From a virus: a stretch of 43,520 bases of DNA. Below, in pieces: positions 5,036-11,688 of the stretch. The DNA is taken from IMG/VR virus record IMGVR_UViG_3300020171_000061, positions 1 through 43,520 of that record. One strand, written 5' to 3'. A program made the position numbers and the translations under genes. A model generated the notes under the pieces. That model had not been told where the DNA came from. It worked only from the letters and a program-made list of their open reading frames with translations, and made no database searches. Position 1 is the stretch's first letter; every line of letters begins with the position of its first letter.

Positions 5036-5218
5036 ATGATGCACACGATTAAGAACGTCTCTCGCAATACGAAAACAATCAACCTCAGCGGGAGGAAGGG
5101 TTCGCTACACCTTCCCCGTAGGGGCAAGGCCGCACTCACCAAACAGGAGTTTGAAAGCTCCGATGTTCAGGTTTTGCTACGCGGCGGCTACCTGGTTGAA
5201 ATTGGAGGTGAAGGATAG
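5036..5218 (+). CDS. Small conserved-position protein before tail sheath
   Basis: 60 residues (59 if the second ATG at 5039 is used). AAGGAG at 5028-5033 lies only 2 nt from the first ATG and 5 nt from the second, so the second ATG is the better-placed start. A basic N-terminal half (NVSRNTKTINLSGRKGSLHLPRRGKA) is followed by SSDVQVLLRGGYLVEI. Mu-like and related contractile-tail phages often have a 50-70 residue protein immediately before the sheath gene (Mu gp38 position). Here no family match can be claimed. Its TAG overlaps the sheath GTG. Confidence 0.6.
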   Translation: MMHTIKNVSRNTKTINLSGRKGSLHLPRRGKAALTKQEFESSDVQVLLRGGYLVEIGGEG

Positions 5219-6759
5219 TGGCTGGAAACGAACGCTATCTCTTTCCTGGTGTCTATACGTCGGAAGTCCCAGTCGGTGGAGAACCCCTCCAGCCAACCGG
5301 AACTTCTGCGGCTGCGTTTATCGGTACCGCCGAATGGGGTCCGATGGGAACGCCTACACTGGTAACAAGCTGGGCCGACTTCGTTCGCAAGTTCGGAAAC
5401 GATCGCACGAACGGCTACCTGGCACGGGCTGCGCTGAACTTCTTCAGAATGGGCGGAATGCGACTGTACGTTGGCCGTACCTGCCATTACACTGATGTGT
5501 CAAACCCGGCAACCCTGACTGCGGTCAAGGCAGCGGTAACGATGATGTCTGGCGAAGTAGTGCCACAAGCCATGCTGGTATTCACCGCAAAATACTATGG
5601 GTCATTCGGCAACGACCTCAGTGTCCAGATTCTCAATGTGGATGAAACCAACTTGGTATTCGATGTTGCGATCATCCAAACGGTTGACGTTGGCAAGTCC
5701 AAGGTGATTGAGTGGTACCAAGACGTGTCCGCCGATTCAACCAGTGACGACTTCATTGAAGACATCATCAACTCAGGCACCCGCAAGTCGAACTATGTGG
5801 CTGTGGCCGTGTCTGTAGAAAATGTCCTTCCTGCTGCTGCAACCACCGCACTGACGCTAGGCGGCGACGGGCTAACCAGTATCGCCGACGAAGACTACAT
5901 CGGTAACTCGGCAGGCAGGACGGGTATGTACTCACTGGATACCGTCCGCGAGATGTTGACCATCTGCCATCCTGGCATCACCGCACAAGATGTCATTGTC
6001 GCCGGTCAGAACTATGTGACCACCGCACTATCGCGACGCAGCATCGATGTGTACGCATTCGACTTCCCGCTTGGCTACACCGCACAAGAAGTCGCGGCAT
6101 GGAAAGCGTCCCACCTCAGCAACACAGGCTATGAGTGGGGATGGTTCCCGTGGGTGGTCGAAGGGTCTACCGAACAGCCGCTTGCGCCGTATGTCTGTGG
6201 TGCAGCTGCACGGAATGACTTCCTGTACGGTGTGTGGAACGCCCCGGCAGGCACGGACTTCGATCTGCCAATTACCGAACTTGACTATGACGTTTCCCTG
6301 GGAGAAGGACAGATTCTTAACCCCAAGGGAATCAACGTTGCCATCCGATTGCCTGACGAGGGCTTCGTGTTGTGGGGGGCGAGAACGTTCGCTGTCAATA
6401 CCCACTTCCGCTACATCAACGTACGCCGGTTCACCAACGCGATCAAGAAGACGCTGCAAGATGGGACACTGCAATTCGTGTTCGATCTCAACGCCCCGTC
6501 TACTTGGCGACGGGTTGAAGACACGGCACACATGTTGATGATGTACTACCACTCGTTGGGTGCCTTCGCTGGCAAGACGCCGGAAGAAAGCTTCTATGTG
6601 CGATGTGACGCGACGACCAACCCGCCTGAACTCGTAGACCAGGGCATCATGACTTGTGTCATCGGTATCTGTCCTGTCAAGCCTGCTGAGTTCGTCGAGT
6701 TTGAAATCCAACTCTTCAACACGGGCGATCTTCCTTTGGCCGAATCTCCGCAGGCATAG
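5218..6759 (+). CDS. Contractile tail sheath protein
   Basis: 513 residues, GTG start coupled to the preceding stop. The N-terminus FPGVYTSEVPVGGEPLQPTG followed by AAFIGTAEWGP is the classic start of sheath proteins. The C-terminus carries the conserved sheath module: NAIKKTLQDGTLQFVFDLNAP, TWRRVEDTAHMLMMYYHSLGAF, then ESFYVRCDATTNPPE and GICPVKPAEFVEFEIQLF. The sheath surrounds the tube and contracts on infection. An insertion-like middle domain spans about residues 60-330. Length and order (small protein, sheath, tube) are standard. Confidence 0.95.
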   Translation: MAGNERYLFPGVYTSEVPVGGEPLQPTGTSAAAFIGTAEWGPMGTPTLVTSWADFVRKFGNDRTNGYLARAALNFFRMGGMRLYVGRTCHYTDVSNPATLTAVKAAVTMMSGEVVPQAMLVFTAKYYGSFGNDLSVQILNVDETNLVFDVAIIQTVDVGKSKVIEWYQDVSADSTSDDFIEDIINSGTRKSNYVAVAVSVENVLPAAATTALTLGGDGLTSIADEDYIGNSAGRTGMYSLDTVREMLTICHPGITAQDVIVAGQNYVTTALSRRSIDVYAFDFPLGYTAQEVAAWKASHLSNTGYEWGWFPWVVEGSTEQPLAPYVCGAAARNDFLYGVWNAPAGTDFDLPITELDYDVSLGEGQILNPKGINVAIRLPDEGFVLWGARTFAVNTHFRYINVRRFTNAIKKTLQDGTLQFVFDLNAPSTWRRVEDTAHMLMMYYHSLGAFAGKTPEESFYVRCDATTNPPELVDQGIMTCVIGICPVKPAEFVEFEIQLFNTGDLPLAESPQA

Positions 6760-6769
6760 GTGATCACTG

Positions 6770-7738
6770 ATGACTGAAAAACGTGCACGACGTGGCCTGT
6801 TCACTGTGTCAGTGATCGGGGCTGGTGGCGAACATAAGCTGCAAGGCATTACCAACTTGGAACGCACTGTCGAGATGATTGACAATGTGTCCGAGTCAAC
6901 GCGCAACAGCAAAATCTCGTTACCGGCACAGCTTAACACAGGCCCGATCACCTTCTCCGAAGCCCCATTTGCGGGCTGTGGAGACATGCCGGCAGGCAAC
7001 TTCTTCTTTGAGGTGCTGCACCAAGGAGAGGTCATCGCCCATACTCGGAGTGTCTCCGGGCTGGGTATTGAATGGCCAATCTCCGAATCACGGGAAAGCA
7101 CTTCTCTCAATGTCCAGAAACTCTGGGACAAGTACACCGTACCAGAGATAACCATTCAGCAGGTGATCGAACTCACGGAGGGCAATCCTCTGCTGACAGC
7201 GATGGAGAAGATGGGCAAGATTCAAGGACCGGGTGAAGGTTATTCTGTCGTCGGTGGCGCATCTTGTGCCTACCGTGGCGACTGGATCATCCGGCTGATG
7301 AATCGTGGAAGTGACGAAGTAGCCAAATGGATACTTCATGGGGCATGGCCAAGCAGGTACCAACCGATTAACGACTTCGACGCCGATGGTGGCGATGTCG
7401 GACTGCGGTCACTTACTCTGCGCCTTGCACCAACCGCTGCATCACCGGCCATCGAAGAGACCGTTTCTTCGTGGGCGAATGCAGCCGGCAGTGGATTGGT
7501 CAGCCAAGCATGGCTTACCTGGATCTCTGCTGTCTTCCGCGCCGCCCCGACACGCAAGAACCTTTCCATCAATCACTACCATCCTGACGCAATCCCCGGC
7601 ACCGACGAACCAGTGAAGACCTACAAGCTATTCAACTGCTGGCCGTCTTCGATTTCCTACCAGGATCTCGATGCCGGATCACCCGCACTAGCTACTCGCG
7701 AGATTTCCATGGCTTGCGACGGCTGGCAAGAAAGCTAG
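6770..7738 (+). CDS. Tail tube protein (gp19-like, enlarged)
   Basis: 322 residues, about twice the length of a T4 gp19-type tube protein. Residues 95-215 follow the gp19 pattern: a GLGIEWPISESRES turn, strands and a helix. They end in 'AWPSRYQPINDFDADGG' and a final 'LRSLTLRLAP' strand. The C-terminal 90 residues repeat the last part of this fold (NCWPSSISYQDLDAGSPA, then EISMACDGW). A second, partial copy of the tube fold is therefore likely. The tube polymerises inside the sheath, and the gene directly follows it. A strong stem-loop terminator follows 10 nt after the stop. Confidence 0.75.
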   Translation: MTEKRARRGLFTVSVIGAGGEHKLQGITNLERTVEMIDNVSESTRNSKISLPAQLNTGPITFSEAPFAGCGDMPAGNFFFEVLHQGEVIAHTRSVSGLGIEWPISESRESTSLNVQKLWDKYTVPEITIQQVIELTEGNPLLTAMEKMGKIQGPGEGYSVVGGASCAYRGDWIIRLMNRGSDEVAKWILHGAWPSRYQPINDFDADGGDVGLRSLTLRLAPTAASPAIEETVSSWANAAGSGLVSQAWLTWISAVFRAAPTRKNLSINHYHPDAIPGTDEPVKTYKLFNCWPSSISYQDLDAGSPALATREISMACDGWQES

Positions 7739-7801: not shown

Positions 7802-8590
7802 ATGAAAGCTACGCTACCTGTTGGTGTAAGGAACGAAAGTGCTTTACTTCGAGAGATCGAGGTTTCGGCACCTACTGGCCGATGTCTGAAGCAACTACGC
7901 AATGATCTGATTGGGGGCACCAACCGCGACGTCTATCTCAACGTGCTGAAACAAGGCGTTGTCGAGGTCGTTGGATTTGGCAAACCGACAGAATCGTTGC
8001 TGCTTTCGATGAAGGCGGTTGACGCAGAGTTTGTCTACTACACGATGGCTTTGCTTGACGCACAAGGCGACTGGCCAACGCTGACCCGTGCCTGTTCTCA
8101 ATGCGGGCACTCATTCAAAGAAGAATTCGACTTCACCGATGTCGTTGTACGCCGGATTGGAGACGAAGACTTCGACTCACCCTTCAACAACGATGAGGGC
8201 ATGGCTGATTTCACGCTATCTCGCCCCATCACATCACTCGATGTCGAGAAGACGCCCTACACGAAAGGCAAGATTGGCCTGACGGCAGTGGGCGACTGGC
8301 TGGACATCATCTCCTCCAAGAAGAAAAGCGAAGATGGACTTGGCACCAAGATGATGCTGTCGCTTGTGAAAGCGATTGCCGAACTGGGGCCTGACTGGAA
8401 GAACAGCGGCACGATTGCCGATCTTGACGGCCTGCCGATGCGCGATCTGAAGATGCTAGAAAAACTCCACAACGACAACAAGCCCGGGGTGCGTACACCG
8501 GAAGAGACAACGTGCCCAAACTGTGGCACCGAGTTTCGTCTGATGCCATTTGACTGGGTGAAGGATTTTTTCGTAGCCAGTGCGGACTAG
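7802..8590 (+). CDS. Tail assembly chaperone / T4 gp26-like protein, zero-frame product
   Basis: 262 residues. Two Cys pairs (C98-x2-C101 in RACSQCGHSF and C238-x2-C241 in TCPNCGTEF) suggest a zinc site. The arrangement recalls T4-type baseplate-hub/tail-assembly chaperones, which carry 'C-x-x-C-G-x-x-F' elements. The gene occupies the standard chaperone place, directly before the tape measure. Five residues before the stop it has a perfect -1 slippery heptamer T_TTT_TTC (8566-8572). This is the zero-frame, shorter product. The start at ATG 7802 follows GGAGGGAG. Confidence 0.75.
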   Translation: MKATLPVGVRNESALLREIEVSAPTGRCLKQLRNDLIGGTNRDVYLNVLKQGVVEVVGFGKPTESLLLSMKAVDAEFVYYTMALLDAQGDWPTLTRACSQCGHSFKEEFDFTDVVVRRIGDEDFDSPFNNDEGMADFTLSRPITSLDVEKTPYTKGKIGLTAVGDWLDIISSKKKSEDGLGTKMMLSLVKAIAELGPDWKNSGTIADLDGLPMRDLKMLEKLHNDNKPGVRTPEETTCPNCGTEFRLMPFDWVKDFFVASAD

Positions 8591-8808
8591 AACACCAGCC
8601 TGACGGCACGTTCGCAGAGGTCAAGCAAAAGCCCTACGAAACGGGCGTGCTTGACGTCATCGACCATCTCGTATTCCAGAAGTACCACTGGACTCTTGAC
8701 TATTGGGACTCTCTCCTCACACCCATCCGCCGCACCTACATCAGCATGTTAATCAAAGATGCCGAACTCCAGGCAGATGCGTTGGAAGACGCTAAGTCTG
8801 GGCATTAA
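7802..8808 (+). CDS. Tail assembly chaperone, -1 frameshift product (join at 8572)
   Basis: Slippage by -1 at T_TTT_TTC (8566-8572) lets the ribosome read C8572 again. It then continues through 78 further codons to TAA at 8806-8808, giving a predicted 335-residue fusion (257 zero-frame residues plus the extension). The extension begins RSQCGLEHQPDGTF, ends in KDAELQADALEDAKSGH, and is protein-like. The -1 frame is closed upstream by TGA at 8551-8553. Between that stop and codon 8646 it has no ATG, GTG or TTG start, so independent translation of the whole extension is unlikely. Lambda G/GT-type frameshifting before the tape measure is known in many phages. This instance is read from sequence only. 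Confidence 0.7.
8566..8572 (+). other. -1 ribosomal frameshift slippery site T_TTT_TTC
   Basis: In the zero frame the codons are GAT TTT TTC GTA. The heptamer T TTT TTC fits the X_XXY_YYZ rule for tandem -1 slippage of the P- and A-site tRNAs. It lies 13 nt after the only nearby stop of the -1 frame and 16 nt before the zero-frame stop. No convincing stimulatory stem-loop was found by eye in the following 60 nt. Confidence 0.75.
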
Positions 8809-8817
8809 GGAGGCACC

Positions 8818-11688
8818 TTGACCGGCATCGGTTCCGAAGTTGGACTCTATTTTCGCGCAAAGGTTATTGGTGCAGAAGCAACTGCGGCAAACCTAAACAA
8901 GATCGCTAGTGCTGTTGGCAATGTCAACCAGCAACTGACAAATCAAGGCCGCGCCATGACGGGAATGGGCACAGCTGCCGGCACTGCCGGGACGGCTGTC
9001 TCCAATACCATGAACGTGGCCGCACGGTCAACGACCAGCCTGGGCCGCTCCGCTACTGCTGCCGGAACTTCTGTTACCGGGGCAATGAACGGTGCGGCCC
9101 AATCTGCATTCCGCTATACCTTCTACGCGATGATGGCCTTGCGGGTCGGCCAAATGCTGATTTCCAAGGTGCTGTCCAAGGGCATGATCACCGCTGGGGC
9201 CAGCTACGAGAGGGCGTGGACGCGCATCAACGCCGTTCTCCAGACGACTACGGCGAACATCGGCTTACTGCAAGAAAAGGCCGACCACATTGCAATGACG
9301 CTGCCGTTTGGCCCGATTGACGCAGCCGAGGCAATGCGCACTATGGCCAAGGCGGGGATGCAGGTCAACGAGATTGTTGATTCCATCGCCTATTCAGCCA
9401 ATATGGCGGCAATGGGTGAAATCTCGTTGAGTGATGCCGCGACAATGACCGTGACCACCCTCCGTGCTTACGGCAAAGAGGCAACCTACGCCGCCCATGC
9501 GACAGACCTCATCGGCTACTACGCAAGCAAGTCCATCTACGACATTGCCGATCTTGGAACAGTCCTCAATACAATCGGCCCGACTGCCCATGCCTATGGC
9601 CAGGATCTTGCCCAGACACTCCAGCTTGCCAGCGCCTTCGGTGGCGTTGGCGTTTCTGCTTCTGAGGCAGGTACACTGATGCGCCAACTCTACATGAGGG
9701 CGTCGAAGCCTGAAGTGCGTGGTGCGCTTGAGTGGGGACTGGCAGCAGAGGGAGAAGCGGCGCTTTACAGCCCTGAGACAGGATCGATGACCAACGTTGG
9801 GTCTGCCTACATGGCCCTAGCACGTCAATTATCCGCTTACAAGCATGAGGCAGGCATCTCCGGTGCCGAGAAAGCCGATCGTGGGGCAGCTATTGACGAA
9901 GCCATTTACCAGTTGTTTGGTGTACGCCAAGCACGAGGCTTTCTCTCGTTGTCAACATACGACGAAAACCAGTTCAATTCCCTGATTATTGAGAACCTAG
10001 CAACCACAGAAAAGGCTGCCGAGGAATACCGCAAGAAGTACATCGACGTACTCAGTGATTCCTACTACTGGACAGAACAGCAACTTGCATCGACTAAACA
10101 GTTATTTGCGACAACGATGGGTGCACCGATGTTGCGCGTGTTGCGCCCGTTCAAACAAGCGGCCACAGAAGTCGTCTCCTTTGTCAACAACCTGATTAAG
10201 GCTAACGAAACCACCGAGGTTATGATCCCCAACCTCATCCTTGCTGGTACGATGGTCCTCGGCTTATCAGGTGCCGTAGCCATTGCCGCCGGTACGTTCA
10301 TGTTGCTGAAGACACGTATGGCAGACGTAGGCCGCACGATCCTCGCCAATACTGCCGCAGTGATGAAACTCAATGCCGCCGGCTTTGCAACTGCCGGCAT
10401 GTCTGAATCCGCAGTCGGTCTTGCCTATTTCCGTTCCTTTGCCAGAGTGCCGATGCGCTTCATCGGCGGGGCTGCCCTTGTCGGTGGATTGGTGGCGATT
10501 GCCTGGCGTAACAACCTGTGGGATCTTCAAGAACATACCTCGAAGTTTCTTACCTGGTGGCGTGTGAACATGCGGCAAACTGGCGGGGTTGCAAAAGCGC
10601 TGTCAGACAAGCTGTTGGGTGCGACTGAAAAAGGAACGGGGACAGGTAGCTTCCTTGAAGGATTTGTCAAGCAGTTCCAGAGAGGCGGAACGCTGGATGT
10701 CGTCGGTGAGGTGATGTTCAAGTTCCTCGTCTCCGCCGGCAAGATGGTATACACGGTGTTGTCAAAGGTCTTCTGGATTGCCGGCAAACTGATGCACGGC
10801 TTTGCATGGATGGTTGGATTTGGGGACACTGCCAAGGGACTTGAGAGGGTGGGGGCTGCGATTGGGTTCCTGTTGTCAATCACCATCCTAGAGAAGACGG
10901 CCCATAGTCTGTGGACAGTTGGCAAGGGTTTGTTCGTTGTTATCCGATGGATTTCAGGTTTACGGAAAGCGGTTGATGGCTGGTCCTTCGGCGGCATGGG
11001 GGCTATTAACCGACTCATCCCGTTCAGACAGCAACGGGCGTCTGCTTACAGCTTTATGATGAACCCACGCCGTATGGCAGCGGCGGCAGTCGGCGACCCC
11101 CGGCTTAGGGGGATTACTACTAATGCGCAGATTGCAAGCGCGATCGCGTTGAATACAAGGCATAGTGCAGTTGTAAGGGCGGCGACACAAGGCACTGCAT
11201 ACAACCTTGTGGCCCGCGATGCGGCTACTGCTGCTGCGGTACGTTCAACCCAGGAAACCGTAAAGAGTACAATGTGGCGCAACCAGATGGGCGGTCTGTA
11301 CCTTGCCCCACGTGCCAGATATGCGGCGTTTAGAACAGGCGGGGATCTGCCAGGTTCCGGCTTGGCTGCACATGGCGGCATCGGCATGGGGCGTGCTGGA
11401 TCGATGTTGGCCACTGTGATGCCCTACATCCTCACGGCAGCAGCCATCGTTGGAATCATTGCCCTTATTGCCCACATGTTCAGGAAGAAGGAAGAGGTCG
11501 GCCCCGGCTACGGCCCAACGAATGACTTCAGCAACCACTTCACTATTGTCGCTGCGCCGGGAGAATCGCCGGAACATACCGGGCGCACTGTCCTAAAGAT
11601 GATCGAAGCGAGTGACCGCAACGCAGCAGAAATGGCCAAAGAATACGCGGTGCGGAAAAGCACTTCTGCCCTGCCAGCCACTGCCTAA
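8818..11688 (+). CDS. Tail tape measure protein
   Basis: 956 residues. The TTG start at 8818 is chosen because AAGGAGG (8807-8813) lies 4 nt upstream and overlaps the frameshift stop. The sequence from PFGPIDAAEAMRTMAKAGM to the QLYMRASKPEVRGAL region matches the core of TP901-type tape measures (PF10145). Hydrophobic, Ala/Gly-rich segments lie near residues 474-498, 545-560 and 862-888; the last is YILTAAAIVGIIALIAHMF. They are typical of tape measures that insert into the host membrane. As the longest gene it would set tail length; at about 0.15 nm per residue this suggests a tail near 140 nm. Confidence 0.92.
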   Translation: MTGIGSEVGLYFRAKVIGAEATAANLNKIASAVGNVNQQLTNQGRAMTGMGTAAGTAGTAVSNTMNVAARSTTSLGRSATAAGTSVTGAMNGAAQSAFRYTFYAMMALRVGQMLISKVLSKGMITAGASYERAWTRINAVLQTTTANIGLLQEKADHIAMTLPFGPIDAAEAMRTMAKAGMQVNEIVDSIAYSANMAAMGEISLSDAATMTVTTLRAYGKEATYAAHATDLIGYYASKSIYDIADLGTVLNTIGPTAHAYGQDLAQTLQLASAFGGVGVSASEAGTLMRQLYMRASKPEVRGALEWGLAAEGEAALYSPETGSMTNVGSAYMALARQLSAYKHEAGISGAEKADRGAAIDEAIYQLFGVRQARGFLSLSTYDENQFNSLIIENLATTEKAAEEYRKKYIDVLSDSYYWTEQQLASTKQLFATTMGAPMLRVLRPFKQAATEVVSFVNNLIKANETTEVMIPNLILAGTMVLGLSGAVAIAAGTFMLLKTRMADVGRTILANTAAVMKLNAAGFATAGMSESAVGLAYFRSFARVPMRFIGGAALVGGLVAIAWRNNLWDLQEHTSKFLTWWRVNMRQTGGVAKALSDKLLGATEKGTGTGSFLEGFVKQFQRGGTLDVVGEVMFKFLVSAGKMVYTVLSKVFWIAGKLMHGFAWMVGFGDTAKGLERVGAAIGFLLSITILEKTAHSLWTVGKGLFVVIRWISGLRKAVDGWSFGGMGAINRLIPFRQQRASAYSFMMNPRRMAAAAVGDPRLRGITTNAQIASAIALNTRHSAVVRAATQGTAYNLVARDAATAAAVRSTQETVKSTMWRNQMGGLYLAPRARYAAFRTGGDLPGSGLAAHGGIGMGRAGSMLATVMPYILTAAAIVGIIALIAHMFRKKEEVGPGYGPTNDFSNHFTIVAAPGESPEHTGRTVLKMIEASDRNAAEMAKEYAVRKSTSALPATA

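Follow-up and report, generated by a model that had tools for sequence, protein, structure and literature searches.

The region from 7802 to 8808 of the window, the 43,520-nucleotide stretch of viral DNA analyzed here, raises the question of how a tail gene and the open reading frame that overlaps its end are expressed. The initial annotation proposed that the two are joined by a programmed -1 frameshift. The best explanation is that the region codes for a T4 gp26/gp51-type tail assembly chaperone, very probably made as two isoforms through a -1 slip. All of the features described below lie on the + strand.

The tail gene cassette

The genes are arranged in the order sheath, tube, chaperone gene and tape measure. 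The tail is contractile, as judged from the predicted sheath gene (5218..6759; phrog_23, E 2e-51). The sheath gene is followed by a tail tube protein of the T4 gp19 family (6770..7738; PF06841, E 4.3e-27), by the zero-frame gene of the putative chaperone (7802..8590) and by a tape measure protein of 956 aa with a TTG start (8818..11688; PF10145, E 4e-24; phrog_1533, E 7e-20). The gene at 7802-8590 thus lies between the tube and tape measure genes, immediately before the latter, the position expected for a frameshifted chaperone of the G/GT type.

Close relatives of the phage were sought with several of its proteins. None was found in the viral contigs searched by the chaperone, sheath, capsid or tape measure protein, in bacterial genomes by the chaperone, or in phage records by the chaperone, extension, tube or sheath protein. 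With respect to the first four proteins in viral contigs, the phage represents an orphan lineage. Only distant relatives of the sheath were recovered, and these gave access to the chaperone family.

The slippery site and the -1 extension

The 262-codon ORF at 7802-8590 ends ...GTG AAG GAT TTT TTC GTA GCC AGT GCG GAC TAG. The heptamer T_TTT_TTC (8566..8572) is in the correct frame for -1 slippage, the zero-frame reading being GAT TTT TTC, and the zero-frame stop, TAG (8588..8590), is located 5 codons past it. Its T6 run has no counterpart elsewhere on the + strand of the 43.5 kb, and A6 runs are absent; a check of 7,684 in-frame codon positions gave no other homopolymeric slippery heptamer. The -1 frame stays open between 8554 and 8808. 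Reading after the slip would begin with CGT at 8572 and end with the TAA at 8806-8808, so that the extension (8572..8808) comprises 78 codons plus TAA and the predicted fusion 257+78 = 335 residues. The TAA overlaps the ribosome-binding site of the tape measure gene, AAGGAGG (8807..8813), with the TTG start then at 8818. The heptamer, the length of the fusion and the end of the extension at the tape-measure ribosome-binding site had all been claimed initially and were confirmed.

An open run of 78 codons occurs off frame by chance at 6% of positions and is not decisive by itself. The coding score of the extension in the -1 frame, in contrast, is gene-like, +30.7 bits compared with 32.9 +/- 10.4 for slices of real genes of equal length and at most -7 bits for off-frame slices. 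A hidden Markov model built from the extensions of 73 relatives scored 8554-8805 (E 0.024) above all others of the window's 1,035 six-frame segments (runner-up 1.2), and alignment of the window extension with those of its relatives by hhalign gave P 5.6e-5 and a probability of 66%. The profile match is modest alone and becomes persuasive only when combined with position and frame. The extension is predicted to fold as a helical hairpin (pLDDT 79). Searches with the window extension alone found no family match in Pfam or PHROGs, and a fold search found no match.

The sequence 3' of the heptamer was also evaluated for stimulatory RNA structure, and none at the usual distance was significant. A tentative stem-loop with a 7-bp outer stem starts 8 nt downstream (8581..8616), its stem being no better than that of shuffled sequence (z -0.55 to -1.26). 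When an additional hairpin is included, the segment 8577-8660 reaches z -3.2.

One alternative is that the extension forms a small gene by itself, its translation beginning at a start codon of its own or by re-initiation once the TAG has been passed, with no frameshift involved. The cyanophage P-SSM5 is annotated with a 57-aa gp51 gene of its own, and in the Pseudomonas phage Cygsa01 an ATG overlaps the zero-frame stop (TAATG) and the heptamer is absent. However, the first start-like codon in the extension frame of the window is GTG 8647 (extension codon 26), 57 bases beyond the zero-frame stop and within the first predicted helix, and the first ATG is codon 59; no Shine-Dalgarno sequence or ribosome-binding site was found at either. 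Moreover, the open stretch of the -1 frame begins ahead of the stop and includes the T6 run, and even in P-SSM5 a T_TTT_TTC lies in phase just upstream. A separate gene is therefore very unlikely in the window, and the claim that the extension lacks a start of its own holds, no usable start having been found.

Family of the zero-frame protein

The 262-aa zero-frame protein scored 17.9 bits against PF12322 (E 0.0027), below the Pfam curated cut-off of 24.5 bits, and E 0.0081 against phrog_150, both weak alone. The two profiles were matched at E <= 0.01 by every one of the 59 aligned rows, among them the window. Because the profile scores are sub-threshold, the placement of the protein as T4 gp26-type rests on homology in alignment and fold together with the CxxC pairs and the terminal Phe-Phe. 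In a small database, blastp gave E 2.7e-11 with one related locus (L035) and 1.6e-6 with phage BRock. The AlphaFold model of the window protein was of moderate confidence (pLDDT 64), and its best viral match was the baseplate hub subunit of phage SP-15 (E 8.8e-8); other T4-like hub assembly proteins also matched. A search of the PDB with the core gave no match.

The protein has two zinc-type cysteine pairs, C98/C101 and C238/C241, and a Phe-Phe at F256 and F257. The four cysteines are kept in about 46-47 of the 59 aligned rows and the terminal Phe-Phe in 57-59. A profile scan with all gp26-like proteins yielded no conserved stretch. Taken together, alignment, predicted fold, the CxxC pairs and the sheath gene support the original proposal that the partner of the extension is a zinc-pair, T4 gp26-like protein in a contractile-tail phage; the window gene appears to be a divergent member of this type in the interval between tube and tape measure.

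The initial annotation had also pointed to a further cysteine in the extension (RSQC). The residue is present but private to the window, a cysteine being found within the first 8 extension residues of 0/69 relatives. Its role as an additional zinc ligand was rejected since no relative has a cysteine there.

Conservation of the site and extension in relatives

Six phages reached through the sheath, SP-15, LIS04, BRock, LuckySocke, GiJojo and SagM-GXN1, have the same gene order, and the 'baseplate hub' gene of each aligns to the window gene, CxxC pairs included. In all six, an extension that has no start or starts late overlaps the end of the gene; it lies in the +1 frame, equivalent to -2, and the sites are TTT TTT CAC, TTT TTT AGT, TTC TTT CGT or CTG TTT C. 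A tblastn search with the SP-15 protein led to PA5oct, Atu_ph07, Mel-JY01 and two huge phages. PA5oct, Atu_ph07, P-SSM5 and Rhizobium phage LG08 share with the window the gene family, the heptamer T_TTT_TTC and the -1 frame of the extension. Vibrio phage VmeM-32 has T_TTT_TTT with a -1 extension, and the extension of LR756511 is in the -1 frame. These relatives are remote: PA5oct and Atu_ph07 differ from the window in having only about 15% protein identity, and the conservation of the heptamer as a whole rests on very distant relatives (12-26% identity).

In the records of P-SSM5, LG08, PA5oct and Atu_ph07 the extension is annotated as a separate gp51, annotated as a hypothetical gene, or absent. 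The 57-aa 'gp51' of P-SSM5 (L116:3154-3366) looks like the -1 extension of gp26 and not a separate gene, and a small ORF in LG08 (L117:3142-3360) likewise resembles a gp26 -1 extension rather than a gene of its own. The -1 extension of VmeM-32 (L119:3088-3360) carries no annotation.

The breadth of the arrangement was determined by two profile scans of environmental viral contigs in which only the gp26 part served as query. The scans yielded 98 loci, 97 with a readable stop, of which 90 were distinct; 81 distinct loci had enough downstream sequence. An extension of at least 50 codons in a +1 or -1 frame crosses the stop in 81/81 distinct gp26-type loci, as compared with 32/195 control ORF stops on the same contigs. 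For five of the 81, scoring had picked a longer spurious frame; in each of them the other frame carries a genuine extension of 50 codons or more. T|TTT TTC is present in 17/18 loci of the -1 class, and TTT TTT T in 64/72 loci of the +1/-2 class, mostly as TTT TTT TGG. Elsewhere in the surveyed genes the phenylalanine codons are mixed (132 TTT, 84 TTC), and the remaining 73.9 kb of gene sequence outside the sites contains 14 T6+ runs. Substitutions in the extensions of 20 independent pairs number 339, 214 and 651 at codon positions 1, 2 and 3, a pattern indicating that the extensions are under selection at the protein level.

Several further observations were made in the course of the survey. 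Weak matches to the extensions of relatives were obtained with PF20546 (DUF6760, a family of unknown function), in 34/70 relatives (alignment of L018-L103), and with phrog_634, 'baseplate hub assembly catalyst'. In Nostoc phage N1 (L004:7332-7980), a different-looking protein at the same position ends GAA TTT TTT CGG with an extension in the +1/-2 frame, and the poly-T site may recur in another type of chaperone.

Two loci of the +1 class, L054 and L076 (stops at L054:3104 and L076:2111), have CTT TGG in place of TTT TGG. CUU U is the classical +1 frameshift site of the RF2 gene. The resemblance favors +1 over -2 slippage, at least at those two loci.

Cygsa01 was the only examined locus that clearly gives the extension its own ATG, with loss of the slippery site; there the extension (L118:2809-2982) is now a separate, coupled gene. 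With this single exception, the relatives examined did not clearly keep the extension as a gene with its own start, and both the heptamer and the coding signature downstream are present in the window. Since distant relatives retain the heptamer and a homologous extension, the initial interpretation is supported and was mostly right, and the pattern extends far beyond one phage.

The same sites bear on the possibility that the frames are joined by slippage of RNA polymerase on the T6 run and not by the ribosome. The site is a homopolymer, and T7 runs are present in many relatives of the +1 class. Six bases, however, is a short run for transcriptional slippage. Furthermore, loci of the -1 class hold the run in a single phase with a C after it, the signature of tandem re-pairing of Phe-tRNA, and some sites of the +1 class have no long run (CTG TTT CGC in BRock, TTC CTT TGG in L054). 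Polymerase slippage is likewise very unlikely. Least credible of all is a reading frame that is really continuous and was broken by an error of sequencing or assembly, or by decay of the gene: the window is a single metagenomic record and errors favor homopolymers, but the same break position and short zero-frame tail after Phe-Phe occur in very distant phages that include the isolates PA5oct, Atu_ph07, P-SSM5, SP-15 and BRock.

Comparison with known chaperones

T4 gp26 ends ...LKEFFELL and has no extension. In T4 gp51, a core resembling gp26 (P 1.9e-17) is combined with a C-terminal tail aligning with the extensions of T4-superfamily phages (P 3.3e-13). On the basis of these alignments, gp26 and gp51 may be read as the short and long isoforms, encoded by one gene each. 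T4 resembles the window in that the proteins belong to the same family by alignment and predicted fold, the short form ends in Phe-Phe and the long form has a homologous C-terminal tail. The difference is that T4 uses two genes, whereas the window has one gene with a putative -1 frameshift. The +1/-2 class (SP-15, LIS04, BRock, Mel-JY01 and most environmental loci) shares with the window the position, the family, the Phe-Phe/Leu-Phe site and the extension family. Unlike in the window, the extension of this class lies in the +1 frame and the site is TTT TTT T(GG CCT) or TTT C, which would involve a +1 or -2 slip instead of a -1 slip.

The chaperone gene of phage P2 is designated E/E+E'. By arrangement, the window is similar to lambda gpG/gpGT and to the P2 chaperone, which precede the tape measure gene and are produced as two isoforms by frameshifting near the 3' end (PMC5009743). 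By signal and position it is similar to the chaperone of Vandenendeviridae/Andersonviridae (phage Adele, PMC12846349): these phages have myovirus morphology, and a poly-T -1 signal, GTTTTT, is located where their chaperone gene ends.

Much of this is already known. A 2010 review described gp26 and gp51 as hub assembly chaperones, gp51 being essential and of unknown function (PMC3004832). A 2016 review considered G/GT frameshifting widespread 'except T4', with -1, -2 and +1 variants, and covered the contractile-tail phages P2, Mu and HSTV-2 (PMC5009743). The contrast drawn initially with long non-contractile tails is therefore not new, contractile-tail cases having been described in these phages, in Vandenendeviridae and in T4-like chaperones. 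According to the papers that cite them (PMC10885494, on PRFect, and PMC12846349), Vladimirov, Gautam and Davidson (Virology 2022, 566:9-15) reported T4-like chaperone genes consisting of a short gene and a fused long gene; poly-T signals in chaperone genes of the T4-like kind are cited in the Adele paper (PMC12846349) as well. From the citing papers and the gp51 alignment we infer that these short and fused genes are gp26 and gp51. The GenBank record of Acinetobacter phage Stupor names gp26, gp51 and gp28 tape measure chaperones. The T4 short/long result is best taken as an independent reproduction of the 2022 work, as cited, and not as a discovery.

The window extends these systems by a lineage that is very divergent. 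Neither the depth and extent of frameshifting among gp26-type zinc proteins, nor the large +1/-2 class at TTT TTT TGG CCT, nor the approximately three frame changes were found in the literature searched, which missed most subscription journals; all of these may be new.

Proposed mechanism and implications

Most ribosomes would terminate at the TAG at 8588 and release the 262-aa short form. A minority would slip by -1 on T_TTT_TTC, with the Phe tRNAs in the P and A sites re-pairing on TTT TTT, and would produce a low level of the 335-aa long form with its predicted helical C-terminal domain. The slip frequency would set the ratio of short to long form. If the roles are like those of lambda gpG/gpGT, the short form would coat the adjacent tape measure protein, and recruitment of the tube subunit would fall to the long form. 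The sequence shows the anatomy of the locus, an extension that is coding and homologous to others, and conservation of site and arrangement in the relatives; the slip, its efficiency and these protein contacts are inferred.

The annotation of many contractile-tail phages is affected, since their 'baseplate hub' and 'hub assembly catalyst' genes appear to be pieces of a single frameshifted chaperone gene, the long product of which is absent from the records examined. The tree, which is poorly resolved, requires about three changes of frame. It is reasonably likely that an ancient family of contractile-tail zinc chaperones kept one Phe-Phe/poly-U site while the mode of recoding changed between lineages, being -1 in some and +1 or -2 in others, with gene duplication in T4 and a coupled gene in Cygsa01. 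If this is true, selection would act on the output of two isoforms and not on the mechanism that produces them.
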